From the IMG/VR virus record IMGVR_UViG_3300029448_006778, positions 1 to 55,700 of that record: a stretch of 55,700 bases of DNA. One strand, 5' to 3'. This DNA comes from a virus. The notes under the pieces were generated by a model. The model was not told the origin of the DNA. It saw only the letters and a list, made by a program, of their open reading frames with translations, and did no database searches. Every line of letters starts with the position of its first letter. Positions within the stretch are counted from its first letter, which is position 1. Shown piece after piece: positions 1 to 18,198 of the stretch. The position numbers and the translations under genes were made by a program.

Positions 1-279
1 TGTTAAAATTGTTAATCTTCTATTACCAGAAGCTTTATAAATATTCTTAAAAACCCTAAACATAGATTTAATCTTTTTGGGTTGTATCACTTTATCAAAA
101 TCAGAAAAATCAAGCTTATCACCTGGTTTAGATTTGTATATTGCATATTCACCAGTTGTTAATGTTTTTCTTTTTCCTTTATTAATTACATATATTTTTG
201 AATTTGATTTTACTAATGTATCATCAAAATCAAACACTCTTAATTTTTTTTCTAAAATTAAACTTTTCAATTTAATCAT
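1..279 (-). CDS. HAD-family phosphatase with capsid-targeting-like N-terminus (partial)
   Basis: The gene is cut by the left edge; 93 codons are visible from the ATG at 279. After a ten-residue leader, MIKLKSLILE, comes RVFDFDDTL, which is HAD motif I with the nucleophile and acid/base Asp pair. The visible part ends near RLTILT, which looks like HAD motif II. HAD enzymes of this kind remove phosphates from small molecules or nucleic-acid ends; the substrate cannot be read here. The leader ends in I-L-E and matches the leaders of four other genes in the window, so I infer packaging into the phage head and cleavage after Glu10. The start overlaps the upstream stop as ATGA. Confidence 0.8.
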   Translation of the reverse strand, partial: MIKLKSLILEKKLRVFDFDDTLVKSNSKIYVINKGKRKTLTTGEYAIYKSKPGDKLDFSDFDKVIQPKKIKSMFRVFKNIYKASGNRRLTILT

Positions 280-692
280 CTTCTGTACAACCAACCACCA
301 TGTACATCGAATCTTGCATATGTTTTAGGTTCAAATATATTACCTCTTACACCCTTTGCTCTTCCATTGTATCCGGCAGGTTTATAAATGTCACCATTAC
401 TTTTATCTACAAAGAAATGTACACTCATACCTTTTTTTGGTTCGTTTGCACGAACATTAACTATTCTATCAAACTTTGGGCCTTTTTTCAAATGTGCTGG
501 ATGTTCCCAACTACCCATTTTGTGTGTAGATGGAAATGATTTTTTATGTTGTTTCTCTGCAGATTTCTTCATAAAATCTAACATCTTTTTCATAGCTCTT
601 TCATATCCAGCAATTGCTTCGTTTTTTGCAGTAATCTCTTTTGCAATATCTTTTGCAATATCTTCACCTAATAGTTCTTTTAGTTTAATCAT
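276..692 (-). CDS. Putative internal virion protein, unknown function
   Basis: A protein of 138 residues starting MIKLKELLGE, the ten-residue leader shared with four other genes and ending in the (L/I)-x-E pattern cut by T4-type prohead proteases. Residues 11-50 are charged and helical. The C-terminal half (about 85-138) is rich in Gly, Lys and aromatics, with segments such as SVHFFVDKSNGDIYKPAGYN. I do not recognise a catalytic motif. It overlaps its neighbours by ATGA downstream and by one base upstream, so it is likely co-translated with them. Packaging into the head is an inference from the leader. Confidence 0.75.
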   Translation of the reverse strand: MIKLKELLGEDIAKDIAKEITAKNEAIAGYERAMKKMLDFMKKSAEKQHKKSFPSTHKMGSWEHPAHLKKGPKFDRIVNVRANEPKKGMSVHFFVDKSNGDIYKPAGYNGRAKGVRGNIFEPKTYARFDVHGGWLYRR

Positions 693-1081
693 TAGATTTT
701 ATCCATTAATCTTTTAATCTGTTTTAACATTTTTGCAGTACCTTGGGCATTTTGAAATACACCATAATCTTGTCCAATCTTTACTAATTCGTCAAACTGG
801 TCTCGTAAATCATACTTCATTTGTCTCCAAGTCCTACTATCAATTTTTTTTGCAGGAAGTACTTTTATATTACTTTCTACCAATGTAGGTTTTTCATCTT
901 CATCAAAAGTTTCTTCTTTGAATGCAAAAGCATTACCTGTAAAAACTTTACCAACTTCCATACCTTGTGGTAAATTTATATCAAATGCAGATTCATTTAA
1001 TTGTTCTGTAGAACAACAATCTCCACCACATTCACATGCATGTTTTGTTTCTTCTTTTATTAAATTTTTTAATTTTATCAT
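692..1081 (-). CDS. Putative internal virion protein with Cys cluster
   Basis: The protein is 129 residues from the ATG at 1081. An in-frame upstream ATG at 1105 would overlap the previous gene, and the 1081 start places the shared leader, MIKLKNLIKE, exactly at the N-terminus. Directly after the leader is a compact Cys cluster (CECGGDCC) that could bind metal. The C-terminal 50 residues are helical and basic. I recognise no enzyme motif. The gene lies two bases after the upstream stop in the chain of leader-bearing genes downstream of the prohead protease. Delivery into the capsid is inferred. Confidence 0.75.
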   Translation of the reverse strand: MIKLKNLIKEETKHACECGGDCCSTEQLNESAFDINLPQGMEVGKVFTGNAFAFKEETFDEDEKPTLVESNIKVLPAKKIDSRTWRQMKYDLRDQFDELVKIGQDYGVFQNAQGTAKMLKQIKRLMDKI

Positions 1082-1082
1082 T

Positions 1083-2075
1083 TTACCAAATCCTTGCGAA
1101 AGCACCTGAAGTAATAGTATTGGACATCTTACCGATTTCTTTTCCTACTCTCTGTGCATTGAATCCCATATATTCATTATCAGGGAAATTTTTCTTATCT
1201 CTCATATCTCTTTCTAAATCCATACGATACGAATCTATTTTTTCATAAAACTTATTCATAGCAGTTGTGATAGAAGCTAATGCACTCATTACATCACCCT
1301 CATCTGTAGGGTCTAACTTTTTACCAGCCATTATTTTATCAGAAAATGCATTTGGTTTACCACCTACTAATCCAACAATTAGTTTATTAGCATAATCTTT
1401 TGTTTTCTTAATTACACTTTTTACTTTTGCTGGGTCATTGTAAATCTTCTTTAATGCAGCTTCATATCTTCTTTCATTTTCTTGTTTAAAATCTTTATCA
1501 GTTCTCCATGTCCAAGAACCATCTTTAACATCTGATCTTAATTTTCTTAATACATCAGCACCAATATAAGGTAATAACTCATCAGTTAGAATTTGATAGA
1601 ATTGAATTCCATCTATCTTTTTAATTGATTGTGGACTTTGATACCCATATTTGTTTAAACCAAAAGTTTTATAATTATCTGCACCCCATTTTGTTGGGTT
1701 ACCAACTGAGATATCTTTAGCATAATACGATTTTGTCCACCAAATTGTCTTACCATTATTTAATACACTTACAATAGTACCTTTATCTATCTCTTGATCA
1801 CTTTCCCAATATCTATTACCTTTTGCATAAAGAGTTACTTTCTTACTTGTCACTGCAATCGCAACACCTTTTCTTGGTAGTTTATTTAACTTGTTGATAT
1901 GTTTATCTTGTATCTCACTTGCCATAACACCTTGTTTTGCCATCCAAGTATATAAATCTCTATCTAATCCCCAATTTTGTTTTGCAGAAAATTTTCTTAA
2001 TATATTACTTTTAAATTTTTCTGTAATAAGGTGTGATACTTTTGATTCTTTTAGTATGTCTTTTAATTTTATCAT
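1083..2075 (-). CDS. Putative internal virion protein, 330 aa, unknown
   Basis: It starts with MIKLKDILKE, the shared ten-residue leader ending in L-K-E; a second candidate site of the same pattern (I-T-E) follows at about residue 18. The rest is a soluble, Lys-rich protein with Trp-containing segments, including SWTWRTD near residue 187. It has no membrane segment and no motif I recognise. Its start overlaps the stop of the DUF3008-like gene as TAATG. Position after the head protease and the leader suggest a protein packaged in the head or part of the prohead core. The function is unknown. Confidence 0.75.
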   Translation of the reverse strand: MIKLKDILKESKVSHLITEKFKSNILRKFSAKQNWGLDRDLYTWMAKQGVMASEIQDKHINKLNKLPRKGVAIAVTSKKVTLYAKGNRYWESDQEIDKGTIVSVLNNGKTIWWTKSYYAKDISVGNPTKWGADNYKTFGLNKYGYQSPQSIKKIDGIQFYQILTDELLPYIGADVLRKLRSDVKDGSWTWRTDKDFKQENERRYEAALKKIYNDPAKVKSVIKKTKDYANKLIVGLVGGKPNAFSDKIMAGKKLDPTDEGDVMSALASITTAMNKFYEKIDSYRMDLERDMRDKKNFPDNEYMGFNAQRVGKEIGKMSNTITSGAFARIW

Positions 2076-2668
2076 TATCTTAAACTCACATTTTTACCGA
2101 ACTTCTTCCACATATTCCCAATTACTATGTAGAGTTTCTTTTCGTTTAGTTTATTCATCTTTTCTTTTATTGGGTCACTGGCCTTATCATATAGTTGTGT
2201 GAATAATCCAGCACTTAAACTATCTAATGTTCTACCACCGAGTTTTCCATAACCATTTTTTTGTATATCAAAAATCTTTTGAACACCCTTTGATTTGGTA
2301 ACTTCTTCTTGAGTTAAGGCCTGATTTTTAAGATAATCGTTTTCATCTTTATTTGATTCTTTTAAATCTCTATCTTCTGGACCAGTTCCACCAGGTGATT
2401 TGAGTTTCCTACCTGTGACTGAATGTGTATAACCACAAGTTTCTAACTCTAATCGAATCATCTCTCTAAGTTTCTTTAACATTTCTTTTTTCACTTTATT
2501 AGGTAATCCCTTGTGTTTTGTTGATGCATATTTCTCAGTATCTTTCTTACTCATAGATTTTGCAGCATCTTTAACTGATTTACTTACTTTACTTGTTGGT
2601 ACTTCACCTTTTTTATAAGCATGAACCAAACCCATAAATCTCTGTTGAGCTTTGGACTTGGAAGGCAT
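2075..2668 (-). CDS. DUF3008-like phage protein
   Basis: The 197-residue protein begins with the signature SKAQQRFMGLVHAYKKGE, typical of DUF3008, a small family common in T4-like and marine phages with no assigned function. The first 75 residues are strongly basic. The tail of about 120 residues is not part of that signature and contains an L-K-E site near residue 103 (RDLKES). It sits directly after the prohead protease, where T4-like phages keep head-assembly genes. A role as a scaffold or core component is possible but not shown. Confidence 0.75.
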   Translation of the reverse strand: MPSKSKAQQRFMGLVHAYKKGEVPTSKVSKSVKDAAKSMSKKDTEKYASTKHKGLPNKVKKEMLKKLREMIRLELETCGYTHSVTGRKLKSPGGTGPEDRDLKESNKDENDYLKNQALTQEEVTKSKGVQKIFDIQKNGYGKLGGRTLDSLSAGLFTQLYDKASDPIKEKMNKLNEKKLYIVIGNMWKKFGKNVSLR

Positions 2669-2669
2669 A

Positions 2670-3287
2670 TTACTCTCCTCGTATAATTTTATTAATTATA
2701 TCTTCTGCTTTACAAAATTGTCCACAAGTTCTCGATTGTCCTCTTTCGACATTCTCGTTTACTGGATATAGAAATGCTCCATGTGTTGATGGATTCGATA
2801 CAAAATCAAATGCAATCAATTCAAAGTCATTTCCAACTTTTTGTGCAGGTTCATCATCTGGACCTTCTGATACGGTTTCAACTGAACCCATACCACGAGA
2901 ACTAATACCTAACTTGATACCATTCTTGAATAATTCTCTTAAAATATTTCCACTTGGTGTTGTTAGGATTTCTACCGTTCCTAATAAGTTATCACCCTCA
3001 AAGTGCATTTCTGTAATATTATGAGATACATTTTGTAAATTTACTACTGAACTATCTGGATGATCTAATTCACCAAGTGCTCTTTTTTGTTTAATAAAAT
3101 TACTATTATATTTTTTTGACTCACGAACCAAAATATCTCTTGGATATACTCTTCCATTTTGATTTTTTGCTTCTGCTCTTTGTAATACACCTTTAACAAC
3201 TAACTTTCCGTTGTTTTCTTTGATTGACTCATTTACTTGAGTTGCTGATATATCAAATGGTATATAATCTACAATTAAATCCCTCAT
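2670..3287 (-). CDS. 21: Prohead core protease, T4 gp21 type
   Basis: This is the serine protease that digests the prohead core and trims leaders before DNA packaging. The 205-residue protein has the two hallmark blocks of the gp21 (peptidase S80) family. GELDHP at residues 72-77 supplies the catalytic His76, and GISSRGMGS at about 127-135 supplies the catalytic Ser. A segment NGRVYPRDIL at about 44-53 is also typical. The family cuts after (L/I)-x-E. Five proteins in this window carry such a site at residue 10, which makes them likely substrates. The length matches the T4 enzyme (about 212 residues). The gene follows the core-type genes downstream of the portal, as in T4. Confidence 0.92.
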   Translation of the reverse strand: MRDLIVDYIPFDISATQVNESIKENNGKLVVKGVLQRAEAKNQNGRVYPRDILVRESKKYNSNFIKQKRALGELDHPDSSVVNLQNVSHNITEMHFEGDNLLGTVEILTTPSGNILRELFKNGIKLGISSRGMGSVETVSEGPDDEPAQKVGNDFELIAFDFVSNPSTHGAFLYPVNENVERGQSRTCGQFCKAEDIINKIIRGE

Positions 3288-3288
3288 C

Positions 3289-3759
3289 TTATTTCATCCT
3301 TTTAATCATTCCTACAACTTCTCTCATAAATTTAGTTACATTATCTTTGTAGGATTTTTTTATATCTTTTGCTAATTTCTTATTTTCTGTTCTTGGGTCT
3401 CGTAGAAAACCTTGTTCTACTTTTAACATTCTTTCTCTAAACTTACCCTCAATCTTAATTAACATTTGTAATTCTTTTTTAGTAATTCTAATATCATCTG
3501 GACTTTCTGTTACTGATATGGATTCATTTTCTCTTTTTTTCTTTTCATCTCTATCCATTTTATCATTTGCATCTTGTGCAGCTTTACTCATTTTATTATC
3601 GATGTCTTTTGCTCCACCTGGTTTTGCAGGTCTACCACTACCTTTACCACCCTCTTTATTTAACTTATGTTTTTTCATAGTATCTTCAAGAGTAGGTAAC
3701 GGATCACCGAAACTTCTATTCAATATGTCAATAGATTCTTTTAAATATTTATCGTTCAT
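3289..3759 (-). CDS. Putative prohead core or scaffold protein
   Basis: A highly charged, mostly helical protein of 156 residues with a disordered Gly/Lys-rich segment at about 35-55 (GGKGSGRPAKPGG) and a basic C-terminus. It has no catalytic motif. It sits between the portal and the prohead protease, where T4 has core genes 67 and 68, and its start overlaps the upstream stop as ATGA. The position and composition suit a prohead core protein, but I see no direct sequence signature for gp67 or gp68. Confidence 0.65.
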   Translation of the reverse strand: MNDKYLKESIDILNRSFGDPLPTLEDTMKKHKLNKEGGKGSGRPAKPGGAKDIDNKMSKAAQDANDKMDRDEKKKRENESISVTESPDDIRITKKELQMLIKIEGKFRERMLKVEQGFLRDPRTENKKLAKDIKKSYKDNVTKFMREVVGMIKRMK

Positions 3760-4400
3760 TGTAATTTCCCTACTTTGTTAGCTAACTTAACTAATCTTTC
3801 TGAAATTTTACTCATTGCCTTATGTGTGTTCTTCCAATATGAGTTTGAATCAACACTTAACTCGTTCTTCAATTTAACATTCATATCAATAAGTTTACTT
3901 AATCCATTTAATGAATCCCTTACTTCTCTCATTGAACGACCAATCTTTTGTTTTGGGGATAATGTTTCGTCATTTCTCCAATCGTGATAACGACCTTCGT
4001 TTACTTTTTCAAAACCAAATACATCTGGTTTTTTATGTCCTTTTTTCTTTTTCTTAGAGAATGCCATTGGTGTATCATAATGTCCAGTACCTGTTCCATC
4101 AATTCCTGCAGATGCAGTAGTGTTTGATTCTTCAAGTTCTTTGATTTCTTGTTGAACTAATGTTTTTATAATACTTTTTACTGATTCTGTTTTTTTATCA
4201 ATCTGTTTACCAAATGCAGGTTGAACTCTTGATACATCTTTAACTGCCTTCAAACCTTTTTTTAACATTTTACCTACAAGTGTTTTTGCTTGACTAGCAG
4301 ATTGTGCATTTACTATAGTATTTGCAAGTCCATGTTTTTCACCCAAGTCAAACTTAACTGAAAACATTGCCTCGTTGATTTTATTTTTTACTTGTGACAT
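3756..4400 (-). CDS. Head-module protein, unknown (core candidate)
   Basis: The 214-residue protein has a basic helical N-terminal half, a low-complexity middle with a Lys run (about 116-123), and a C-terminal block (about 135-214) beginning NEGRYHDWRNDETLSPKQK. I believe this block recurs in marine phage head modules. It starts MSQVKNKINEA, with an I-N-E site at residues 8-10, but the leader otherwise differs from the shared MIKLK type. It overlaps the upstream gene by 20 bases. The location between portal and protease suggests a role in head assembly. The function is not assigned. Confidence 0.65.
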   Translation of the reverse strand: MSQVKNKINEAMFSVKFDLGEKHGLANTIVNAQSASQAKTLVGKMLKKGLKAVKDVSRVQPAFGKQIDKKTESVKSIIKTLVQQEIKELEESNTTASAGIDGTGTGHYDTPMAFSKKKKKGHKKPDVFGFEKVNEGRYHDWRNDETLSPKQKIGRSMREVRDSLNGLSKLIDMNVKLKNELSVDSNSYWKNTHKAMSKISERLVKLANKVGKLQ

Positions 4401-5253: not shown

Positions 5254-5323
5254 ATCAGCTCCATGTTTTCTATTTGACTACTAATAAATATAAAACTATT
5301 AAGAAATGTGTATTTTATAGACA
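5254..5323 (-). promoter_or_regulatory. AT-rich gap after the portal gene, possible promoter
   Basis: These 70 bases separate the portal stop from the next start, and gaps this long are rare in the window. Read on the minus strand the gap contains TTTTATATTTATTAG, which resembles sequences in the gaps near 18.24 and 49.58 kb. A GGAG ribosome-binding site lies six bases before the ATG at 5253. No hairpin with a T-run is evident. The promoter role is a guess. Confidence 0.3.
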
Positions 5324-7171
5324 CTATTTTTTTCCTTTGTAATCATTATATTCTTGTTCAACTTCATCTATTTTCTTCTCTTCAGATAAAATTTCTTGTG
5401 ATTTTTTACCCATTGTCTTTTTCAATGCATCATAGTGAGCAAGTGCTAATGGTGATTTGGTATATTGATTCTTTTTATCTTGTTTTCCTAAAGGATCTCT
5501 ACCTCTTGCACCACTATCTTTACTATACTTGTTCATTTCCTTGGGTCTACCTGCACCCTCGTGTCCACCCTCAGGTGAACCACCTTGTTCATCTACATCA
5601 CTCCAAACTGAACCTGCAACTGAATCATCATTGTCGTCATCCGATGATGTCATATCACTTGGTGTTCCAACTGATTCTCCAGATGCTTGTGGATCATTGC
5701 CTTCATTTTCGATTTGTTCGTATCTAAATTTATTTTTCTGGTCTTGAACAATTTGTTTTTCAATTTCTTTCTTCTCATCATCTGAAAAATTAAACACATT
5801 GTTATAAACCCATTCACTTGGTAGTAATTTCTCACCAATCATATCACGAGCTAATGAAACTTTCTGTCCCCATAGTTCAATCTTTTCTTGGTCATACATT
5901 GTAGATGGATTAGTTAATTCTAATTCGAAATTCACCAACTCTGCATCTGTATACCCTTGTGAATATAAGTGAACAACTGCAATCTTTGTTAACTCTGATA
6001 TAATAATTCTCTGTATTCTTTCTATGGTTCTAGCAAATCTTACATCTTCTGCTGCGAGTGTTGCTTTACTTCCCATGTTTTCATCAAATCCTAAGAATGC
6101 CTTTGGTACTCTTAGTGATGCCAATAGTTTATTCTTTAAATATTCAATGTCATCAGTTGAATCATAATCTAATCCACCCAACTCTGATATTTCAGTTCCA
6201 CTATCTCCACCTCGAACTGGCATAAAGAAGTCTTCTGTTAGGTTCTGTATATTATATTTTAAATTATAATCTCCAGTATTCTCATCAAGGAATGGTGTTT
6301 TCTTCATCTTGTTGATGATTCTTTGCATATAATTATCGACTTCATTTGGTGGTATATTACCAATGTCAATCTTGTAAACTCTCTTCGATGGTGCTCTCAT
6401 AATTCTGTGAATCAACATCGCATCTTCCATAAGAGTTAATTGTTTCCAAGTCTTTCTTGCACTTTCCATCATTGATTTACCATAAGGTAAAAAGTTACTA
6501 TCACTTGCCAATCTGAAGTGTGCTACTTGAAAGTTTTCAAATTCAATATTATTACCTTTTTGTTTTGCTCCAAGGTAAGGATGTGCACCCTCAATACTTT
6601 CTAAATAGAATTTAGTATAGTATGGATTAATTGGATCTTCACCCTCTGCTCTTACGACTTCATAAGGTGACAATGGTATAACATTAGTAATACCATACTT
6701 CTCATTTACATCTAAGTATAGATAAAAATCTCCATACTTACACATATTACGAACCCAAGGCCATAGGTTGAACTCAATGTTCATAATATCATAAAATAAA
6801 TTATGTAATATTTCTTTAATGTTTTCGTTATCTGATTTAATCTCAACCACATTACCATATTCTGATTTCATTGTTGATTCATCTGAATAGATATCCAATG
6901 CACTCGATATGATAGAGTCACTATCCATCGTTTCATAGTCTTTAAATAACCCCAATCGTGCAGCCATCACTTGGTGAACTGACGAATAGCCTGTCCCCAC
7001 TAAGTCTAAATTTGAATGTAGTTTAGAATATCTATCTACAAGATGACTCTTCATTTGATGTTGTACTTGATCTGTATCAGCAATTTTTAATTTCCTACCA
7101 CCAACATTTCTTACAATAACATTTGTTGAAAATAGTCGTTGTAATCGACCAAATAATGATTTATCTGCCAT
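5324..7171 (-). CDS. 20: Portal vertex protein, T4 gp20 type
   Basis: The portal forms the dodecameric ring through which DNA enters the head. The 615-residue protein has the gp20 core, including the block MRAPSKRVYKIDIGNIP, followed by the characteristic FMPVRGGDSGTEISELGG and the helix-rich stem region after it. T4 gp20 is 524 residues. The extra length is an acidic, Gly/Ser/Asp-rich C-terminal tail from about 500 to 615, probably disordered. The gene comes straight after the terminase, without the tail sheath and tube genes that separate them in T4. Confidence 0.94.
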   Translation of the reverse strand: MADKSLFGRLQRLFSTNVIVRNVGGRKLKIADTDQVQHQMKSHLVDRYSKLHSNLDLVGTGYSSVHQVMAARLGLFKDYETMDSDSIISSALDIYSDESTMKSEYGNVVEIKSDNENIKEILHNLFYDIMNIEFNLWPWVRNMCKYGDFYLYLDVNEKYGITNVIPLSPYEVVRAEGEDPINPYYTKFYLESIEGAHPYLGAKQKGNNIEFENFQVAHFRLASDSNFLPYGKSMMESARKTWKQLTLMEDAMLIHRIMRAPSKRVYKIDIGNIPPNEVDNYMQRIINKMKKTPFLDENTGDYNLKYNIQNLTEDFFMPVRGGDSGTEISELGGLDYDSTDDIEYLKNKLLASLRVPKAFLGFDENMGSKATLAAEDVRFARTIERIQRIIISELTKIAVVHLYSQGYTDAELVNFELELTNPSTMYDQEKIELWGQKVSLARDMIGEKLLPSEWVYNNVFNFSDDEKKEIEKQIVQDQKNKFRYEQIENEGNDPQASGESVGTPSDMTSSDDDNDDSVAGSVWSDVDEQGGSPEGGHEGAGRPKEMNKYSKDSGARGRDPLGKQDKKNQYTKSPLALAHYDALKKTMGKKSQEILSEEKKIDEVEQEYNDYKGKK

Positions 7172-7183
7172 GTTTTACCTCAC

Positions 7184-8767
7184 TTACAAGAGCCACTCTA
7201 ATGACTCTTTTTCTTTGTTTTTTCCAGTTTCCCACTCCCAACTATCGTTTTTATTCACATCATCGTTAGTGTACAAACCCTCATTATCCATCATTTTGGA
7301 TAATGTCTTTTTTGTTAATTCAATTCCCTCGGTTCGTAGTCTTAATGCAGTATCACGAACCCATAAACCAATAGCAAAAGACATAACTAAATCATCGTTA
7401 TATCCTCTCATTGCTTCGGCTCTATTATTAATATAAACGAATGTTAATAATTCATCTATTAATCTACTTGAGTGAACCACTACTGATTCATCTCTAAAAT
7501 ATTCTTCAAGTTTTGCAATAATTAATGGACGGGTTTTCATTGTAGTTGTAAATCCTGCCACCATATTTCTTTCTTGAGCTCTATATCGATTACCCATCTG
7601 ATGTTGTGTATCAATATATTTTAAATCTTTACTTGTATAAAATAGATTAGGATAATCCCTATCTATTACTTGTTGGATTGTTGCCCAACCAATGTTGTTG
7701 TTTTCTATAATTAGTAAGGCATCGTTATATTCTGTTGCTATACTTACTAACATATTTCCAAAATCTTTGGTATTTATTCTACCTTTGTATTCTGCGACTT
7801 GTTCTATAGTTTCAATGTCAATAACATGGAATGCTGAATAATCTCCACCATCTCCTCTACCCACATCTGCACATACTACATAATTATTTTGATAGTTTGG
7901 TGGTTCCCAAATCCAACAATTACTATCAATACCTCTTCTTTCAAGTGGTTCCTTAACTGATGTTTCTCTACACTTTTCTAATAATACTGCATCAATTACT
8001 GAAGTACCAGAAGTTAAGAAGTCACAATCACATTCTTGTGCTGCACTTCCTGGCCCAAGTAGTGTATCTTGTTCATCTCTCCATTCTTGTTTCCTATCTG
8101 GATGAACCGTCCAATGTAACTTGATTGGATTAAACAAACCAACAGCATCTTCGGCCTCTACCCAAGTTTTGTGGAACCAATTACCAACTCCATTAGGTGT
8201 TGACAATGCAATACATTGTCCACCAGTAGTTAGTGTTTGTTGTGCTGCAGTCCATATATCATCAATCTTATCAATGAATGCTGCCTCATCCAATATCAAT
8301 AATGATAATGCCTCTGAACGAGCTGCTTCTGGACCTGATGCAACTGCCTTAACTTGTGAACCATTTTTATATCGTAAGTTCAGTTTGTTATCCTCAACAC
8401 ATCTTTGTTTCAACCAACTCGGTAGATTAGCATGCATAACACGAATTTTTGTTACCAAATTTTTTGCCACATCTTGTTTGGTTGCAATTACCAAAATGTT
8501 TTTATCTTGATGAAAAGTCATCATCCATAAAGAATACCCTGCAGTTAATGTTGATAACCCTAACTGACGAGCTTTCAAAATAACATTCATTCGATGTTCT
8601 TGAAATTCATCAACAACTTTATCTTGAAAGTCAAATAAGTCAAATGGTATCTTACCTCGTATTGGATGTTGTATAACACAATACTTTTTCATAAAATATG
8701 CTGGACTTTGTGCACACTTTATGTATTCTGACTTAATTACTTCTTTTAATTGTTTTGGTTGTCCCAT
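7184..8767 (-). CDS. 17: Terminase large subunit, T4 gp17 type
   Basis: The DNA-packaging motor and headful nuclease, 527 residues. The ATPase domain shows ARQLGLST at residues 66-73, a Walker A in which the usual lysine position is Leu; Lys65 may serve instead, as in other terminases with a shifted lysine. Walker B is LLILDE at about 156-161. The nuclease domain begins with VVCADVGRGDGGDYS at about 297-311, carrying the first metal-binding Asp residues. The start overlaps the upstream stop as TAATG. The portal gene follows after 12 bases. Confidence 0.94.
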   Translation of the reverse strand: MGQPKQLKEVIKSEYIKCAQSPAYFMKKYCVIQHPIRGKIPFDLFDFQDKVVDEFQEHRMNVILKARQLGLSTLTAGYSLWMMTFHQDKNILVIATKQDVAKNLVTKIRVMHANLPSWLKQRCVEDNKLNLRYKNGSQVKAVASGPEAARSEALSLLILDEAAFIDKIDDIWTAAQQTLTTGGQCIALSTPNGVGNWFHKTWVEAEDAVGLFNPIKLHWTVHPDRKQEWRDEQDTLLGPGSAAQECDCDFLTSGTSVIDAVLLEKCRETSVKEPLERRGIDSNCWIWEPPNYQNNYVVCADVGRGDGGDYSAFHVIDIETIEQVAEYKGRINTKDFGNMLVSIATEYNDALLIIENNNIGWATIQQVIDRDYPNLFYTSKDLKYIDTQHQMGNRYRAQERNMVAGFTTTMKTRPLIIAKLEEYFRDESVVVHSSRLIDELLTFVYINNRAEAMRGYNDDLVMSFAIGLWVRDTALRLRTEGIELTKKTLSKMMDNEGLYTNDDVNKNDSWEWETGKNKEKESLEWLL

Positions 8768-9150: not shown

Positions 9151-9165
9151 ATATATAAGTATATA

Positions 9166-9453: not shown

Positions 9454-9725
9454 TATTCATCCTCCTTGTTAGGTTTACTTATTCCTGCGTCATCTAAAAG
9501 TTCATCAAGTGAAAATGTATTAAACTTTTCTTTGTGTCGTACATCTTCATATTCTAAACTCATAAGTTTTCTCACTACCCTCGTGTAAAGATTTACTAAT
9601 GAATTAGTTTCTTTACCACCAACTTTATTATTATAATCTATAGCAATCTCACCTAATCGTGAAGTTAATGCCATTAAATCAAGTACTATTGATTCAGGTA
9701 ATATTAAGTTTTTTGGCTTCTTCAT
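9453..9725 (-). CDS. Hypothetical small protein upstream of terminase
   Basis: A soluble, mostly helical protein of 90 residues with an acidic C-terminus (DELLDDAGISKP near residue 73). I recognise no motif. It overlaps the upstream zinc-ribbon gene by 32 bases and the downstream gene by TAATG. In T4 the small terminase subunit precedes the large one, so this gene and its upstream neighbour are positional candidates for that role. Nothing in the sequence confirms it. Confidence 0.6.
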   Translation of the reverse strand: MKKPKNLILPESIVLDLMALTSRLGEIAIDYNNKVGGKETNSLVNLYTRVVRKLMSLEYEDVRHKEKFNTFSLDELLDDAGISKPNKEDE

Positions 9726-10260: not shown

Positions 10261-10268
10261 TGTAACTC

Positions 10269-13200
10269 CTATCCAAACTTTAAACTACCAAGAATTTGAT
10301 TGATTGGTGCAAATGCTCCTGTGAATTTATAAATGTTTCCTTTATACTTAAACACTATACCCTCACTTGGAACGATTGCCTTTACTCCACCAATCTTCTG
10401 TAGTTTTTCTATTTGTATTTTTAACTTTTTCAATTTTTCTATTTTATCTGGTTTTTTCAAATCTTTTAGTGCATTTAATAATTCTTTCTTTAACTTCTGT
10501 ACTGATTTATCAGGGGACACTGCAATGTATCCTTGTATATTTTTCAGTATCTCTGCACCCACTTGGAAGAATAATATTTCAAATGGTTTAATATTTTGTT
10601 TAAATATCTTACTATGATCTTGTTTATCTGTGGATGTTATCCAATCTAAAAATTTAGGATTATCTTTAAAATCTCTTTTAATCTCTGGTATTTTATATCC
10701 CTTATCAAAGTATGCCCATCGTTTAACTAACTTTGCAAATTGACTTGGTTTTAATTTAACTTTATATTGTTTTGATGCATTAAAGATATACTCTCTCCAA
10801 AATGATTCGTGATACATACCCAAAGTATCTTTATCAGATAATGCATATTGTTTTTGTAACTTATTTAATTGTCCTAAAAATTTATTTCTTAACTTACCAA
10901 AGTCTTGATGTTTTGGTACACTTAAAAAATTTGGTTTACCAATCTTAAACATTTTTTGTATGTGATTATTTGTTTGTTTAATCATACCTGCCAACATACG
11001 AGCACTATCTTTTGGTTGTCCAATAGGTCTACCACTCTCATCATACTCTAATGTTCCATGAAATATTATTTCTGCAACATCGTAATCTATTACATTTGCA
11101 GTTGCTGGATACATAACCTCTAAATTCATCCATTTCTTACCATTACCGAATACTTTATCTTTTTGTTTATCATTTAAACTACCTATAGATTTCTCTAAGT
11201 CTTTCATCGCACCTACAAAAGCTTTTTCTATATTACCCCTACCACTAAACATAGATTTTATTCCATTCGTGGTTGGAGCAGTTTTACCAAAATTCTTTAA
11301 ATGTCCTTTGTTACGAGCTGCTCTTAACTTACCATCTATCCAACTTACCATTAGATTTTGTCCATCGAGTTTTTCTGTAACCCCATCTTCTCTATCTAAC
11401 TTTCCACCTATACCATTAATAATTATCTGTTTCAAATCTGAAAACATCAAATTATTATCATCAAATGGATGTGCCATATGTCCGTATGCTCCACCCTCTA
11501 TTAATAAGTCAACTTCTTGTAAAAAACTTTCTTTAATGTCTTCTATAGAATCACTTTTAGAGGCATCACCTGGTGCTAAGTCAAGGTTTATTACTCTTTG
11601 AGTATTCTGGTCACCTGTTTGAACTCCAGGTAAAGCTGGTGCTTCAACTGGTACACCTGTTACATTCTTTTCATCAGGAGTTAATCCTAACCATTTAACT
11701 ATTTTAAAATCTATATTAGAAGTTACTTTCTCAATCCATTGTTTATATGCAATTATTGGATCTTGACTTGGGAATCTCTCACCATATGGGCCTGCACCTC
11801 TTCTACCAAATGCTACGGTTGGAACTTTGTCCATTCTCGTAGTATAATCTAATCCAGGATCATTTGCGTTCTTACCTAAAATATAATGTACTAACTCCCA
11901 TCCAAGTCCTCTTTGTGATTCACTATTATATAAAGTTTCAATCCATTTTTTAGATTGTTTTTTGTAATCACTAAATCCATCATAGAATGTTGGTGGGCCA
12001 TCATCTGTTGGAAAGTTTGTAGATGGTGATGATTCTTTTAATATTTCACTTATATCATTATGTATAATAAAATTATCAAATGTTTCAAATAGTTTTTTAA
12101 ATTTATTTGTCATCATATTATAAACACCCTTATCAAAGTATCCGAATGCCTGTTTAAATAATTTAGGTCTATCCTCTTTCTTTACTTTTGGACTACCTAA
12201 TAAGTTTCTCATTACGGTTCCACTTACATCTTGTCCACCAACTTTAATTGATTGGTGTGGTGCAACCATATAGTATCCATGTTCTTCATGTCCTTTTAGG
12301 TTGTTTTTATTTTTATTGTAATCTTGAAAGTATGATAATTTACCACTTTTATTCTTACCACCTTTTAGTCTTCCTGCATCTTTCTTACCGAAGATATAAA
12401 CTACTGCAGTAGTTTCTGGATCAAACTTTTTAAGTAAACTCTTTGCAACCAATGGTATTTTTTCTTTTATAATTTTATTTTTAGGTACACCCATTTTCAC
12501 CATATGTCTAACTTTTTCTGAATAGTTCATTGGATGTTTTGGTGGTTTCTTTATATCTGAAGTAGTGATATATGCGTCATCAACTTTAGATTGTAACCAC
12601 TTAAATGTTTTTAAATGATGTGGGCCAAATGGTTGATATCTACCACCAAATATACCGATTACTTTTTTAATCTTTTTTTCTTGTTCTTTTAGTTTATTAC
12701 TTTTTTTCCATTGAGCATAATTCTTATCAGATATTTTTTTACCATCTTCATTTACTTTTTTACTTGTATCGGTTTTCATAAATGGGCCTCTACGAAGTGT
12801 TCTAAATTTTACTGGTACTTCTTGTCCAAATAATTTTTTTGGTGCTAATATTCTTAAAGTAACCATTTCAGTTTTGTTATCTATTTTTTTTGTTTCAAAA
12901 TCTATTTCTTTGTATTTTCTACCTTTGTGAGTAAGATTAAATCCTGTAATGTTTTTGTGAACCTTTCTACCTGATACTGCTTGTTTTGCTCTTTCATTAA
13001 ATTTTTTATATCCACTACCATAAGGAACTGATGTATTTCCTTTTCTCTTCATCTTCTCAACACCCTTTCTACTTGGTGATGGAATTGCCATTTCATTAAT
13101 GATACCACCTCGTTTATTATACCAAGTTCTAAATTTTGCTGGTGTTCCTACGGTTACACTTCCTTTTGCAATCTTTTCGGCTGCTTTTCTAATATTTGGA

Positions 13201-15431
13201 TAATCATTTCTACTTAATAAAAATACATCTTGAACATGAATTTGATTAACAAGTATTTCGTTCCACCCGTGTTGTGATGGTTTATCTTTTTGACTTAATA
13301 TGTGTCGTTTGATTTGTGGTTTGTATTTATTAATAATTTTATAACCCATATCAATATATTTTTTAATCCATTTTCTTTTCAATGGGCCCATTATTTTTTT
13401 CATTTCTTTTTCTTTACCTCTATAACCACCTTGATAATCGCCCCAATAATCATTTTCTTTTTCCCACTTCTCTTCTGCTTTTCTGTATATTCTATCCCAA
13501 CTTCTTCTATCCATTTTTTTGCTTTCAATGGCTGATTTTAATTCATTATACATTTTACCACCAGCAACTTTACCTGCCAAATCTTGAACTGGAATCCATC
13601 TACGACCTGTATTATCTGGCATTGATTGCATATCTCTTGTACTTGCAACTAATAAAGTTCCCTCTATTTGATAAATGATACCACCACCTGATTGTATACC
13701 TTTTCCTTTTGCAAGTTTCTCACCTTTGTCTACTCTGGTAAATGTAGATAGTGTTCCTTTTTTTCCAACAATTCTTTGAACTTGTTTTATATCACTTTCA
13801 TATTCTGCATTACCGACATGAAATACACTTACTTTTTCTTTACCCAATATACTTTGTATTTTTTTAGTAGACAATGGAACATAATTAGCATACCAACGAC
13901 CGAATGTTGCGTCAAATGTTGATGTTCTATGAACCGAATGAAATTTTGGTTCTTTATCATCATCTTCTGTTAGTTCGTTCTTCTTTTTCTTTTTGGATGT
14001 ATCAGGGTTGTAATATTGATGTTCCCCATCTTTTTGATTTGCAGGTGTTGGTGATTGGTTTCTAAGATAGTTAGGTTTGTTTAACATTTCTAAAAACTTT
14101 TTCTTTTCTAAGTCTTTTATTTTATCACCAATTGCCTTTCCTTTTAATCCAACTATATCACTACCCTTTACACTTAACTTAAATGTTGCAAGTTTTCTAA
14201 AATCTTTACCAATCATTCCACCCCACACAACGATTTGTCTTGGTGTTAATGTAGTTTTCTCTTGTGCCTTTTTAACCATATAAATATTTTCTGGTTTGAA
14301 GTTAGTTAAATAAACTAAGAACTGAATGTTGTTACTTTCTTTTGCACTATACTTTAGTGAGTTTAATTGTTTACCTAACTTACTTACATCATTCTTTCTT
14401 AAAATCATTGCAAGAAATAAAATATAATCCTTGACATTTGGATAAGGTTTTCGTATATTTAGTTGTGGTAATATTTGTTTTGTAAATCCAAACTTATCAC
14501 ATGCTTCCATAAATAATTTAGGATTTTTACCCTTTTCTATACCCTTTACAAATTCTTCTCTAATTCTTTCTCTACTTACACCCTTTAAACTTGGATTATC
14601 TAATAATGCCTTTTCAGTATCTTTATCCATCTTACCACCGATAACTGCTTGAAATCTCAATGCTCTTAATTTTCTTAACGGGTCTTCGTCAAATCTTCGT
14701 TTTGGATTACCAACCGTTCTTACTAATTTATTTTTTAAATCTTTTAATCCACCTGTTATATCAACTATCTCATCTCTACCAATATCATAAAATAATGCAT
14801 TGATAGTTAAATCTCTTCGTTTAACATCACCTTGTATATCAGAAAAATCTACTGCATCAGGTCTTCTACCCTTACCAATATCTTTTCTGAATGTAGCAAT
14901 CTCATGTCCACCCACAACCACAACACCAAATTGTTTACCAACTTCATATGTTTTGAATCCACCACTCTTTGCAATCTTCAATACTTCTTCTGGTTTTGCA
15001 TCAGTTGCCAAATCAAAATCTTTTGGTGATTTACCAAGGATTGCATCACGAACTGCTCCACCTACAATGTATAATTGTTTTTTGTTTTTCTTGAATAATT
15101 TATACAACCCTTTAATATCACCAGGAACTTTTACTTGAACTTTCTTTCCCTCGGTAAACTTATCTGCTCCTCTCATGTCTGGATCAGGTGCAACTGAATC
15201 TTTACCTGGTTTCTTGTTTGGTAACAATTTTCTATCTGATTTTATTATTCGGAACTTTAATGCCGTTCTATTATTAATAAGTAAATCACCCTTTTCATTA
15301 TAACCAATAGTCTTAACTTTAGTTTTTTTATTCTTAAAACGGCCTGTTAAGATAGTGTCCCCAATTTCTACGGGGATTTCTATATCTTCTATTAAAGGTT
15401 TTGTTAACCATTCTGTTAGTCTGTTTTTCAT
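10269..15431 (-). CDS. 1720-residue multidomain protein: tRNA-nucleotidyltransferase, cytidylyltransferase-like and ligase-like modules
   Basis: Residues 119-460 form a CCA-adding/poly(A)-polymerase-type nucleotidyltransferase: GGAVRDAILG at 124-133, metal site DFDLATD at 138-144, RRDLTINAL at 205-213, and the DEDPLRKLRALRF block at 248-260. Residues 495-780 are an unassigned domain with STFTR and GGGIIYQIEG. Residues 922-1080 resemble a class I cytidylyl/adenylyltransferase (GGRYQPFGPHH at 929-939, SGTVMRN at 1070-1076). Residues 1310-1720 look like a covalent nucleotidyltransferase of the DNA/RNA ligase type: EKLDGQ with candidate Lys1354, LEVMYP at 1437-1442, EGIVFK at 1690-1695 and KFTG at 1702-1705. 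Sites of the prohead-protease type, (L/I)-x-E, occur in the linkers at 13-15, 487-489, 778-780, 914-916, 1131-1133 and 1310-1312. It may be a virion polyprotein; that is inference. Confidence 0.85.
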   Translation of the reverse strand: MKNRLTEWLTKPLIEDIEIPVEIGDTILTGRFKNKKTKVKTIGYNEKGDLLINNRTALKFRIIKSDRKLLPNKKPGKDSVAPDPDMRGADKFTEGKKVQVKVPGDIKGLYKLFKKNKKQLYIVGGAVRDAILGKSPKDFDLATDAKPEEVLKIAKSGGFKTYEVGKQFGVVVVGGHEIATFRKDIGKGRRPDAVDFSDIQGDVKRRDLTINALFYDIGRDEIVDITGGLKDLKNKLVRTVGNPKRRFDEDPLRKLRALRFQAVIGGKMDKDTEKALLDNPSLKGVSRERIREEFVKGIEKGKNPKLFMEACDKFGFTKQILPQLNIRKPYPNVKDYILFLAMILRKNDVSKLGKQLNSLKYSAKESNNIQFLVYLTNFKPENIYMVKKAQEKTTLTPRQIVVWGGMIGKDFRKLATFKLSVKGSDIVGLKGKAIGDKIKDLEKKKFLEMLNKPNYLRNQSPTPANQKDGEHQYYNPDTSKKKKKNELTEDDDKEPKFHSVHRTSTFDATFGRWYANYVPLSTKKIQSILGKEKVSVFHVGNAEYESDIKQVQRIVGKKGTLSTFTRVDKGEKLAKGKGIQSGGGIIYQIEGTLLVASTRDMQSMPDNTGRRWIPVQDLAGKVAGGKMYNELKSAIESKKMDRRSWDRIYRKAEEKWEKENDYWGDYQGGYRGKEKEMKKIMGPLKRKWIKKYIDMGYKIINKYKPQIKRHILSQKDKPSQHGWNEILVNQIHVQDVFLLSRNDYPNIRKAAEKIAKGSVTVGTPAKFRTWYNKRGGIINEMAIPSPSRKGVEKMKRKGNTSVPYGSGYKKFNERAKQAVSGRKVHKNITGFNLTHKGRKYKEIDFETKKIDNKTEMVTLRILAPKKLFGQEVPVKFRTLRRGPFMKTDTSKKVNEDGKKISDKNYAQWKKSNKLKEQEKKIKKVIGIFGGRYQPFGPHHLKTFKWLQSKVDDAYITTSDIKKPPKHPMNYSEKVRHMVKMGVPKNKIIKEKIPLVAKSLLKKFDPETTAVVYIFGKKDAGRLKGGKNKSGKLSYFQDYNKNKNNLKGHEEHGYYMVAPHQSIKVGGQDVSGTVMRNLLGSPKVKKEDRPKLFKQAFGYFDKGVYNMMTNKFKKLFETFDNFIIHNDISEILKESSPSTNFPTDDGPPTFYDGFSDYKKQSKKWIETLYNSESQRGLGWELVHYILGKNANDPGLDYTTRMDKVPTVAFGRRGAGPYGERFPSQDPIIAYKQWIEKVTSNIDFKIVKWLGLTPDEKNVTGVPVEAPALPGVQTGDQNTQRVINLDLAPGDASKSDSIEDIKESFLQEVDLLIEGGAYGHMAHPFDDNNLMFSDLKQIIINGIGGKLDREDGVTEKLDGQNLMVSWIDGKLRAARNKGHLKNFGKTAPTTNGIKSMFSGRGNIEKAFVGAMKDLEKSIGSLNDKQKDKVFGNGKKWMNLEVMYPATANVIDYDVAEIIFHGTLEYDESGRPIGQPKDSARMLAGMIKQTNNHIQKMFKIGKPNFLSVPKHQDFGKLRNKFLGQLNKLQKQYALSDKDTLGMYHESFWREYIFNASKQYKVKLKPSQFAKLVKRWAYFDKGYKIPEIKRDFKDNPKFLDWITSTDKQDHSKIFKQNIKPFEILFFQVGAEILKNIQGYIAVSPDKSVQKLKKELLNALKDLKKPDKIEKLKKLKIQIEKLQKIGGVKAIVPSEGIVFKYKGNIYKFTGAFAPINQILGSLKFG

Positions 15432-15435
15432 TTAT

Positions 15436-16650
15436 CTACCATTTACGACAAGACCAGTAACGAGCTTTATGTCTTGGGCCTGGACTATCACAATTGTGTC
15501 TTGCTCTAAATGCTTTACGAGCTTTAGGATTAGACTTTCTAATTCTCATAGTACCACCCTTAGCATCCCCACCTTGTCCAAAATTAACTTTAACCGTGTT
15601 ACCTTTAGGGTTTTTAACATACACCTTAAATTTCTTTGTATCACCTTGCATTGGTTTACCAAGTTTTACTTTTCTTCCTTGATATTCTGCCTCATTGATA
15701 TCTTCATTGTTAAAATCAAATGTATATCCACCAAACTCACCTGTATTAGATTCGTAATAGAGTTCGTTTTCACCTAACCAAACATTAGTCTGAACACCCT
15801 CTTTCTTTACACAATTAGGATATGTTTTACCGAACATTTTCTTCATACCTTTTTTCTCATATCCTTTCCAACACTTCTCATCAAGACTCCAAACTTTGAA
15901 TTCTTTAACATCTTTTTCTTTTTCTTTTGTAATTCCATCTATTCTTTTAGATAAGTTTTCTTTCTTTTTCTTCTTCTTACCCTTTTCTTCATATCCACTT
16001 GCAAATGCTGCCTTTCTTTGAGCATCACTAGCAAATCCCTCTTTTTTGGATTTGTTACCCCAATTCTTTGCACCAACTTTTCTACATTTTACCAATGCAC
16101 CACTTGCGTAAGCAGATGGCCAGACATCATAACGAGATTTTACTTTATGATAACATGCATCCTTTTCACCAGCAGCTTCATCAAATTGAGCTTCTGTGAG
16201 TTTCTTTCCTACTAATTCTTCTAAATTCATTATGTTTTCCGCTTTCGTTTTTACTCTAATTGGTTTTTTACCACCACCTCTTATTGATGATGTTCCACCA
16301 CGATTTGCTTTATTTTGTGCACTTCGTTTTCTACGAGTAGCACTTTCCTTATCTTTCTTACTCATACTACGAGCTTTACTTGCAGGAACACATTTTGCAT
16401 ATGCTCTCTTTTTACCACTTGTCCCACAAGCTGGATGTTTACCACTTTTATCTTTCTTACCGATATTCACCCATTTATCACTAAACCATTTTTTTAAATT
16501 TTCATCAACAATATTTCCACAATTAACACAAGTATTTTCATGTGCCAATAATTCTAACATATCGTTCTTAACCATCATCTTTTCTTTTGATGATAACCTA
16601 TCTTTCTTTTTTCCGATTTCTCTCGGTTCGTCTATGTGAAATGTTGCCAT
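15436..16650 (-). CDS. Cys-rich modular basic protein, probable virion component
   Basis: The 404-residue, very basic protein is built from short Cys-containing modules in a row. They are CVNCG near residue 41, a segment around HPACGTSGKK at 72-81, a KVKSRYDVWPSAYASGALVK module at about 168-187, KCWKGYEKKG at about 258-267, and a final HNCDSPGPRHKARYWSC at the C-terminus. I recall several of these as repeated modules in uncharacterised T4-like marine phage proteins. An internal stretch NLEELVGKKLTE at about 143-154 resembles a protease site. It lies four bases before the 1720-residue gene. The function is unknown. Confidence 0.7.
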   Translation of the reverse strand: MATFHIDEPREIGKKKDRLSSKEKMMVKNDMLELLAHENTCVNCGNIVDENLKKWFSDKWVNIGKKDKSGKHPACGTSGKKRAYAKCVPASKARSMSKKDKESATRRKRSAQNKANRGGTSSIRGGGKKPIRVKTKAENIMNLEELVGKKLTEAQFDEAAGEKDACYHKVKSRYDVWPSAYASGALVKCRKVGAKNWGNKSKKEGFASDAQRKAAFASGYEEKGKKKKKKENLSKRIDGITKEKEKDVKEFKVWSLDEKCWKGYEKKGMKKMFGKTYPNCVKKEGVQTNVWLGENELYYESNTGEFGGYTFDFNNEDINEAEYQGRKVKLGKPMQGDTKKFKVYVKNPKGNTVKVNFGQGGDAKGGTMRIRKSNPKARKAFRARHNCDSPGPRHKARYWSCRKW

Positions 16651-16653
16651 AAT

Positions 16654-16971
16654 TTATCTCGGTGGTTTGGATTCCCAAGGGCCCCAATGTCCTAATTTTA
16701 CCATTTGTGTTGCTGCTTCTTTACCTGTATATTTATAAACTGGATATCCCTTTACTGGTATTCCACCTAACTTATAATACTTCTTTTTTGGTAATGCCAA
16801 TTTCTTTCCATTGGAAAAATCCATTACCATACTTCCTTTTTCTATCCAACAATGACCATAAGGTTTCCTATCACTTGCCAACAACGCAACTCCGTGACAC
16901 AACTTAAATTGTTTATCACCCATTTTTTCAATGATAAAATTACCATTGGCCTGATAACAATCTCCAGCCAT
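16654..16971 (-). CDS. Small Cys/His protein, possible papain-fold enzyme
   Basis: I choose the ATG at 16971, which overlaps the endolysin stop as TAATG (105 residues); an upstream in-frame ATG at 16998 would overlap more. The sequence shows GDCYQANG near the N-terminus, GHCWIE in the middle and VMDFSNG after it. That order, Cys, His, Asp, is the layout of small papain/transglutaminase-fold enzymes. The spacing is compatible, but this is pattern reading only. Its place directly after the endolysin would suit a cell-wall or virion peptidase. Confidence 0.6.
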   Translation of the reverse strand: MAGDCYQANGNFIIEKMGDKQFKLCHGVALLASDRKPYGHCWIEKGSMVMDFSNGKKLALPKKKYYKLGGIPVKGYPVYKYTGKEAATQMVKLGHWGPWESKPPR

Positions 16972-17453
16972 TATACTGACAATGTTCTCTTGAACCAACC
17001 AAATAAAAATCGTTCTTGTTCAGGTTTTTTATTAACTAAATCGTAATAGTGTTTTAATCTATAACAACGAACTCTATGATCTGATGGTTTATATGTATCA
17101 ACTGCACTTTTAGTACCTGGCCCAAATCCACCATCAACTGCCAAGTCAGCACCTTTTGCATTACATGCTCTTTGTAAAACTCTTACTGCAGTTCCTCTAC
17201 CTTGATTCACACACATATCAAAAAAGATATGTTTTAAATTTTCTGGTAAGTCATCTACTTTATTTCTATCCCAATAATCTCTTTTGTAAATTTCTTTAGC
17301 ACCATCTTTTGTAAGGTTCTTGATATCTACATCAGGATAAAATCTACCTGCAATACCAAAATTAGTTTCTCCACCCAAGTCTTTTGGGTCGTGTACATAT
17401 CCGCCTTCATGTTCAAGTGTTATTTCTATAATTTCATCAAATGTAGTTAACAT
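16971..17453 (-). CDS. GH108-type endolysin (N-acetylmuramidase)
   Basis: A lysozyme that cuts the glycan strand of peptidoglycan. The 160-residue protein starts MLTTFDEIIE and carries the GH108 signature EHEGGYVHDPKDLGGETNFG at residues 14-33, with Glu15 the likely catalytic acid. The second half (about 85-150) matches the peptidoglycan-binding part usual in these enzymes, with GADLAVDGGFGPGT. I start at 17453 because AGGAG lies eight bases upstream; an earlier ATG at 17609 falls inside the previous gene. No signal peptide is seen, so release would need a holin. Confidence 0.88.
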   Translation of the reverse strand: MLTTFDEIIEITLEHEGGYVHDPKDLGGETNFGIAGRFYPDVDIKNLTKDGAKEIYKRDYWDRNKVDDLPENLKHIFFDMCVNQGRGTAVRVLQRACNAKGADLAVDGGFGPGTKSAVDTYKPSDHRVRCYRLKHYYDLVNKKPEQERFLFGWFKRTLSV

Positions 17454-17454
17454 C

Positions 17455-18198
17455 TTATTTTCTCCTATTAAGTAGTTTTTGTTTACGAACCCACATCTTT
17501 CCGATTTTGTTTTTGATGGGTTTGTTAACAAACTTTCTAACAACTTTAGTAACCAATGGAACAAATTTTGCCTCCGCTTCTTCTTCGGATAAATGTTTTG
17601 AATTATCAATTATCACGAAATTATTTTTGAATAAGTTTTGAAAAGAACCAAGATTTTTTTGTACATCTTTCCAACTTTTCTCTAATAACTCTGGTGGTAA
17701 GATTCTATCTCTTTCTTGATTTCTTTTTTGTGCAACTTCTAATGAAGTATTTACCATACACATATAAGTATCGTATCCATCATCTTCTAACATTTTTTTC
17801 ATAGTTTGGATTTTACCGAAATCGTGTCCTGTACCATCTATTATCATACCCAACTTACCTTGTTGGTATAATTTCATTCTTTGTTTGGTAAGTGATTTTG
17901 AAAAAGTTCTTAACCCACTATAATCTGATTGTGATGGGTCTGTTAAATTTTTAAATACCTCATCTGGCATTTTATCTAAATCTGTACCGAATCCAAATTT
18001 CTTTAACAAAAATTTTAATTCTTTATCAGAGTTTACCATCTTCATACCACTCATCGATATATTAAATTTATCTGGTATACCAAATAGATTTTTTGCAACA
18101 TAAGTTTTACCACTACCAGGACCACCTGCAAGAAATACGGCTTTGAATATACCTTTATCTTGTATACCCTCGTGTATTAAGTCCATTAATTTGATCAT
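17455..18198 (-). CDS. P-loop kinase with capsid-targeting-like N-terminus
   Basis: The 247-residue protein starts MIKLMDLIHE, the shared leader ending in I-H-E. A Walker A follows at residues 25-32 (GGPGSGKT). IIDGTGHD at about 124-131 and an Arg-containing lid, KRNQERDR at about 158-165, complete the pattern of the polynucleotide-kinase/zeta-toxin branch of P-loop kinases. Members phosphorylate 5' ends of nucleic acids or small molecules; the substrate is not determined by these motifs. The leader implies packaging into the phage head. The C-terminus is strongly basic, which would suit nucleic-acid binding. The gene precedes the endolysin. Confidence 0.82.
   Translation of the reverse strand: MIKLMDLIHEGIQDKGIFKAVFLAGGPGSGKTYVAKNLFGIPDKFNISMSGMKMVNSDKELKFLLKKFGFGTDLDKMPDEVFKNLTDPSQSDYSGLRTFSKSLTKQRMKLYQQGKLGMIIDGTGHDFGKIQTMKKMLEDDGYDTYMCMVNTSLEVAQKRNQERDRILPPELLEKSWKDVQKNLGSFQNLFKNNFVIIDNSKHLSEEEAEAKFVPLVTKVVRKFVNKPIKNKIGKMWVRKQKLLNRRK

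Follow-up and report, generated by a model that had tools for sequence, protein, structure and literature searches.

Phage T4 marks proteins for its head with a capsid-targeting sequence of about ten residues. In its internal protein IPIII, leader residues 4 and 7 are needed for targeting and residues 8 and 10 for processing, and the prohead protease gp21 cleaves after L/I-x-E (PMC9026906); variable internal proteins behind a conserved targeting leader are known from T-even phages generally (PMC3012670). Here we analyze a 55.7-kb virus record (IMGVR_UViG_3300029448_006778; the whole stretch is called the window below), probably part of a larger T4-like genome, in which five genes share the N-terminal leader MIKLxx(L/I)(L/I)xE. 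The T4 sequence and this leader agree in length, in hydrophobic residues at positions 4, 7, and 8, in Glu10, in the gp21 cleavage rule, in the diversity of the bodies that follow, and in the accompanying protease of the S77 family. The new leader's L4, (L/I)7, (L/I)8, and E10 keep the register of T4 IPII and IPIII in different letters (consensus MIKLKxxLxE here, MKTYQEFIAE in T4), and ten residues cannot prove descent. MKTYQEFIAE is the N terminus of IPII and IPIII and not, as a preliminary description of the window had it, of IPI, which starts MKTFKEFTSTTTPVSTITE. The two systems also differ in that far more bodies, enzymes included, follow the leader here, and in that T4 has only about 30 bp between protease and scaffold genes, its internal protein genes being placed elsewhere, where a cassette of leader genes lies in the present group.

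Injection of T4 Alt and IPI is already known. Alt is an ADP-ribosyltransferase (ART) that is trimmed by gp21, packed, and injected, and ART domains also occur among the bodies described here, whereas Alt offers no counterpart to a chain of several enzymes separated by apparent cut sites. Phages of the phiKZ/SPN3US type likewise carry many inner-head ejection proteins that a gp21-related protease trims after Glu, but their propeptides are mostly longer than 100 residues and share no short leader (PMC5694885). An N-terminal signal also packs the defense protein DarB into the head of P1, although that signal exceeds nine residues and has no consensus among Dar proteins (PMC9024508). Polyvalent proteins of phages and conjugative elements resemble the long chain described below in being multidomain, apparently injected effectors that combine ART with other domains, but they often have peptidase domains of their own (PMC5512222), where we propose a separate prohead protease. 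The open-access literature that we searched contained no description of a MIKLKxxLxE leader, of the cassette, or of the polyprotein; as far as that literature shows, novelty lies in the leader family and the great breadth of its cargo, in the cassette flanked by protease and scaffold genes, and in the use of such a leader on a polyprotein.

All five leaders in the window are encoded on the minus strand, from ATG codons at 279, 692, 1081, 2075, and 18198, and each ends in (L/I)-x-E (5/5 genes):

250 to 279, minus strand: leader MIKLKSLILE, predicted cut after E10 (DNA leader pattern, shuffle test, relatives)
663 to 692, minus strand: leader MIKLKELLGE, predicted cut at its end (DNA leader pattern)
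1052 to 1081, minus strand: leader MIKLKNLIKE, predicted cut at its end (DNA leader pattern)
2046 to 2075, minus strand: leader MIKLKDILKE, then a further putative site, LITE19 (Glu invariant at both positions, 10 and 19, in 10 relatives)
18169 to 18198, minus strand: leader MIKLMDLIHE, predicted cut at its end (DNA leader pattern)

The N termini quoted in the preliminary description match these exactly. For the gene at 1081, the program's open reading frame (ORF) entry begins upstream, at a GTG at 1105; the leader's ATG is at 1081. The pattern M..h..hh.E, where h is hydrophobic, stands at the N terminus of just these five of the 56 window genes, and when residues 2 to 10 of the window genes were pooled and shuffled 20,000 times, this pattern, looser than the leader itself, was never matched more than twice. 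At the DNA level a degenerate leader pattern matched the window five times, at exactly these genes and always on the coding strand, and a reversed control pattern gave no match. A 30-residue query of concatenated leaders found no match in the window, such a query being too short for a protein search.

Behind the leaders lie the following bodies:

1 to 249, minus strand: HAD-type phosphatase body with the motif FDFDDTL, cut by the window edge (full-length relative at L193:2239-2760, where L and a number denote a related locus)
276 to 662, minus strand: DUF7717 body (Pfam PF24835, E 1.8e-11)
692 to 1051, minus strand: body of a 129-residue protein with a Cys-rich N terminus, without a family in Pfam and PHROGs searches
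1083 to 2045, minus strand: body of a 330-residue protein without a family, fused behind a tagged module in L059, L065, and L026
17455 to 18168, minus strand: P-loop kinase body, AAA_33/zeta-toxin-like (Pfam, PHROGs, PDB profile, and the junction contexts given below)

Because the gene at 279 crosses the window edge, only 93 of its residues are visible. The 129-residue protein retains its N-terminal part, leader included, in most of 16 matched relatives. A structure model of the 330-residue protein is of low confidence (predicted local distance difference test [pLDDT] 61; residues 1 to 20 below 50). Beyond residue 10 the five proteins have no mutual similarity (best BLASTP E 0.06), which bears out the earlier statement that the bodies are unrelated.

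Related loci were collected by homology to the protease or the kinase and thus independently of the leader. They numbered 129 (1.48 Mb), and a loosely defined leader pattern had 127 coding-strand matches in them; the five matches on the opposite strand were the window's own genes, for which that strand is the coding one. To avoid the circularity of a leader-fetched set, MIKL-starting ORFs were counted without requiring Glu: outside the window there were 118 in sense and none in antisense, and [LIV]-x-E with Glu at position 9 or 10 was present in 82 of the 88 distinct MIKL-starting ORFs of relatives. Positions 4, 7, and 8 are hydrophobic in all five window leaders and in the 88 distinct ORFs (position 7 is fixed by the pattern, position 8 is free). 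Some relatives have nine-residue leaders, such as MIKLQNIIE and MIKLKNLIE; therefore the constant element is (L/I)-x-E and not strictly position 10, so the earlier claim that Glu always stands at 10, as the end of (L/I)-x-E, holds for all five window genes but not for these relatives. Third codon positions of the leader vary freely while its amino acids are fixed, from which it follows that selection acts on the leader peptide. The T4-like pattern MK(S/T)(F/Y) had no match in four cultured relatives.

Among the matches listed from a scan of viral contigs, together with the homology loci, there were at least 284 distinct tagged proteins in at least about 128 body clusters, a set that is partly leader-fetched, so that E10 in it is partly by construction. 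Clustering required 50% coverage and replaced an earlier clustering that had chained unrelated families. Family matches of the tagged bodies included ART, NUDIX, GNAT, RNase_T, ATP-grasp, phosphoribosyltransferase, lysozyme, M23, and others. An S77 protease was found on 12 of 20 long contigs selected by the leader, compared to 0 of 14 control genomes.

The window's own protease and its neighbor are as follows:

2670 to 3287, minus strand: gp21-like prohead protease, the proposed cutter (Pfam Peptidase_S77, E 8.8e-26)
2075 to 2668, minus strand: DUF3008-containing protein, which separates the protease from the cargo cassette (PF11450, E 1.5e-10)

The protease has a His (in GELxHP) and a Ser (in SSRG) in common with T4 gp21, and the preliminary assignment of a gp21-like protease to this gene is thereby confirmed. 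Nine relatives show both ends of the 4.9 to 6.5 kb that separate the prohead protease gene from the scaffold gene, and this interval contains 40 of their 42 leader genes; the count set 51 kb inside the interval against 107 kb outside it. Two loci, L006 and L007, hardly differ from the window as far as the DUF7717 gene, after which they encode another body behind the same MIKL start, the divergence beginning inside leader codon 3. The tagged 330-residue protein is fused behind another tagged module in L059 and L065 with its internal MIKLKDVLRE retained, and in L026 the inner leader lacks its start codon and reads IIKLKDVMRE. The HAD body carries a leader in L155 and L193 and is leaderless in L198. 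Bodies are swapped freely, probably because body and leader separate at one fixed point. Many leader genes overlap or abut the preceding gene.

The kinase body of the gene at 18198 is part of longer chains in other phages, where its upstream partners are a MIKL leader, a nine-residue leader, or several unrelated domains. In 31 of 31 distinct contexts, with leader or fused domain upstream, [LIV]-x-E/G stands directly ahead of it (the slash marks the putative cut). Since this junction is kept in every context, a 1720-residue ORF of the window looks like a polyprotein that would be cut likewise. It joins several unlike domains in a single chain encoded beside virion genes, in the order leader, small domain, CCA-adding nucleotidyltransferase, unknown module, spacer, NMNAT-like module, ligase-like module:

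10269 to 15431, minus strand: predicted polyprotein of 1720 residues with leader MKNRLTEWLTKPLIE (Pfam, PHROGs, relatives)
15387 to 15389, minus strand: predicted cut LIE15/DIEIP, ending the leader (motif scan)
15150 to 15152, minus strand: predicted cut FTE94, preceding the CCA module (INE, ISE, or VNE 6 residues ahead of the same module in relatives)
13965 to 13967, minus strand: predicted cut LTE489 (motif scan)
13092 to 13094, minus strand: predicted cut INE780, at the start of the IPSPS spacer (Glu ahead of the spacer's EFGAP form in 12/12 contexts listed)
12993 to 12995, minus strand: predicted cut FNE813, at the spacer end (VNE in several relatives)
12747 to 12749, minus strand: predicted cut VNE895 (VNE or LKE in the corresponding position of L071, L081, L100, and L117)
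12684 to 12686, minus strand: predicted cut LKE916, preceding the NMNAT-like module ([LIV]xE within 8 residues in 27/30 contexts)
12033 to 12035, minus strand: predicted cut LKE1133, behind the NMNAT-like module (motif scan)
11496 to 11498, minus strand: predicted cut LIE1312/GGAYGHM, preceding the ligase-like module (site within 8 residues in 27/33 contexts, immediately before it in 23)
10272 to 11495, minus strand: ligase-like module with invariant KLDG, NLE, and EG.VFK motifs (weak Pfam RNA_ligase matches, 16/19 members)

The site motif also lies near the start of the CCA module in four of five contexts. Pfam and PHROGs searches found no peptidase domain in the ORF or its modules, and the simplest reading is that the chain would be packed via its one leader, after which the prohead protease would cut it into separate enzymes. 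Microcystis phage Mel-JY01 encodes the NMNAT-ligase half in a gene of its own, whose product has a leader-like stretch at the N terminus.

Several smaller observations concern these chains. The spacer, E/(EFGAPAGV)IPSPSRKGVxKMKRKGNTSVPYGSGYKKxNE/, recurs at varied polyprotein junctions (window 12993-13094, minus strand; L026:82; L047:1030; L090:11052; L097:7889). The ligase-like module follows TKELLLM/GGAYGHM at L026:1444, L037:276, L101:6316, and elsewhere, as if one lineage had lost or moved the cut site. At L010:908-3067 and L102:9703-11862 the polyprotein is present as two ORFs, the second beginning within the NMNAT-like module, which may reflect either a genuine split or a frameshift from sequencing. 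The long hypothetical protein AUZ94865 of Agrobacterium phage Atu_ph07 (L250:760-3080), a giant phage, looks like the same kind of polyprotein, with MKWNDLNE/, EVTE/kinase, and repeated LTE/LFDT and LNE/LFDT junctions, and its N-terminal domain reads as ART-like.

We consider it probable, at about 0.86, that the leader is a T4-type capsid-targeting propeptide, that tagged bodies are packed into the head, trimmed by the S77 protease, and ejected, and that the same sites divide the polyprotein. During head assembly the leader's hydrophobic residues at positions 4 and 7 would bind the prohead core, and for that reason any protein bearing the leader would be packed. The gp21-like protease would then cut after (L/I)-x-E, and the mature body would stay in the head until it is ejected together with the DNA into the host. 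For the polyprotein a single leader would suffice, the same kind of cut separating its domains, and exchangeable bodies would be kept mostly in the variable cassette between protease and scaffold genes. The major capsid protein has a putative site of the same type, IDE64/ASR, close to the 65-residue propeptide of T4 gp23 (PMC5694885). What the sequences show is the common leader with its register and clustering, the swapping of bodies, and the conservation of a cut-site motif where bodies and modules begin. That the proteins are packed, cleaved, and ejected is inferred, as are the functions of their bodies, which perhaps lie in RNA/tRNA repair and other counterdefense. The capsid-targeting function put forward in the preliminary description thus gains support from the unrelated bodies, the gp21 rule, the adjacent protease, the recurrence of the leader, the swapping, and the preserved junction between Glu and body; that description had overlooked the polyprotein, the position of leader genes between those for protease and scaffold, and a cargo that is likely to include RNA-repair enzymes.

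Some observations weigh against this account. Among the 88 MIKL ORFs, five lack an [LIV]xE with Glu at positions 7 to 13, and the tagged proteins with lysozyme or M23 peptidase bodies could be tail proteins. On 8 of the 20 leader-bearing contigs, all of which may be partial, there was no S77 match. In about half of the contexts listed for the ligase-like module, LLLM/GG directly at the module start takes the place of [LIV]xE/GG, some of these contexts having a site 7 to 8 residues further upstream, and therefore the ligase junction is not universal. A literature search turned up neither virion proteomics nor N-terminal sequences for the phage and its relatives, and nothing usable on virion proteomics of the Flavobacterium and Pelagibacter relatives.

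An unlikely alternative, though the best of those considered, is that kinase, NMNAT-like, and ligase-like domains stay together in one multidomain protein and that [LIV]xE is a linker habit of this phage group. Cleavage is a prediction from sequence, the LLLM lineage indicates that the site is not obligatory, and the ligase domain itself contains an [LIV]xE, at its catalytic KLDG. With that one exception, the motif was rare in control windows placed inside modules, and about nine unrelated sequences upstream of the kinase all finish with [LIV]xE precisely where the kinase begins. We regard as quite improbable a leader that directs proteins to the head as an uncut helix binding the scaffold or core, with no protease site. 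The hydrophobic positions could suffice for this, and in T4 targeting (residues 4 and 7) is separable from processing (residues 8 and 10), a leader with Asp10 being targeted and left unprocessed (PMC9026906). But binding does not need the Glu that is kept with such regularity in the MIKL ORFs, and the same triplet is preserved at module starts that lack a MIKL leader. It is very unlikely that the leader is a recombination tag or translation signal under selection at the DNA or RNA level with an incidental peptide. Such a signal would suit the exchange of bodies right at the leader and the overlap of many leader genes with the gene before; the free third codon positions, the mere 18 to 26 of 30 bases that window leaders have in common, and the leader peptides kept inside fused ORFs, once minus the start codon, speak for the peptide. 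Least likely of all is common descent, with the tagged genes as old duplicates whose bodies diverged while nearly identical N termini were kept, since the bodies have different folds (P-loop kinase, HAD, NUDIX, ART, GNAT, RNase_T) and the same bodies occur leaderless, as in L198, or behind other domains, so that the preference for targeting over descent in the preliminary description was sound.

As to function, the polyprotein modules, the tagged kinase, and the tagged phosphatase taken together look like a set for RNA/tRNA repair, a likeness read from domain matches. The CCA-adding enzyme is firmly assigned (phrog_2244, E 1.2e-58). The kinase body matches the polynucleotide kinase family phrog_505 weakly (E 9e-6) and, by PDB profile, seryl-tRNA(Sec) kinase (E 5e-4). 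The full-length HAD relative matches phrog_415, "polynucleotide kinase," also weakly (E 1.1e-6), and a PDB sequence search with the HAD protein gave nothing meaningful. For the ligase-like module (predicted structure, pLDDT 66), a PDB fold search was not significant, although RNA ligase 1s68 ranked first (E 2.5), and PDB sequence and profile searches gave no match. As the kinase, HAD, and ligase-like assignments are weak beside the firm one, we offer the injected repair kit as a hypothesis: possibly, heads are preloaded with a 5'-kinase, a 3'-phosphatase, an RNA ligase, a CCA-adding enzyme, and an NMNAT, by way of the tag and the cleaved polyprotein, and so would counter anticodon-nuclease defenses before phage genes are expressed. 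Phage RNA repair against host anticodon nucleases has been described, as has the packing of NAD- and ADP-ribose-related enzymes in myovirus heads (PMC9503650); in the open-access literature searched we found no description of RNA-repair enzymes packed in heads.

If the leader acts as we propose, a ten-residue pattern would identify the proteins carried in the heads of T4-like phages, of which many are uncultured and probably live in the sea; for the cargo clusters, most of which have no known family, it could be predicted where and when they act. Phage heads could then deliver sets of enzymes, a cleavable polyprotein included, and both the targeting tag and the protease rule could be tested in a laboratory phage.

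The head module, with terminase, portal, S77 prohead protease, and cargo genes, occupies the initial 18 kb of the window, and its further landmarks are as follows:

5324 to 7171, minus strand: portal protein (phrog_213, E 7.8e-73)
7184 to 8767, minus strand: terminase large subunit (phrog_2, E 7e-51)

Among cultured phages, Microcystis phage Mel-JY01 and Flavobacterium phage immuto come closest by portal protein. The source is a T4-like, probably marine phage. Read by eye, the rest of the window consists mostly of sugar and tail genes. About 30 sugar-nucleotide, glycosyltransferase, radical-SAM, and carbamoyltransferase-like genes fill 18253 to 50252 on the minus strand, a run that suggests elaborate glycan synthesis. 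Two tail-region proteins, at 50249 to 51745 and 52774 to 53823 (both minus strand), appear by the same reading to end in Hint/intein-like domains (CFLPGSKVLMEDGTEKNIEDIDVGDKV...VHN and CLLLGTSITLKDD...THN, respectively).

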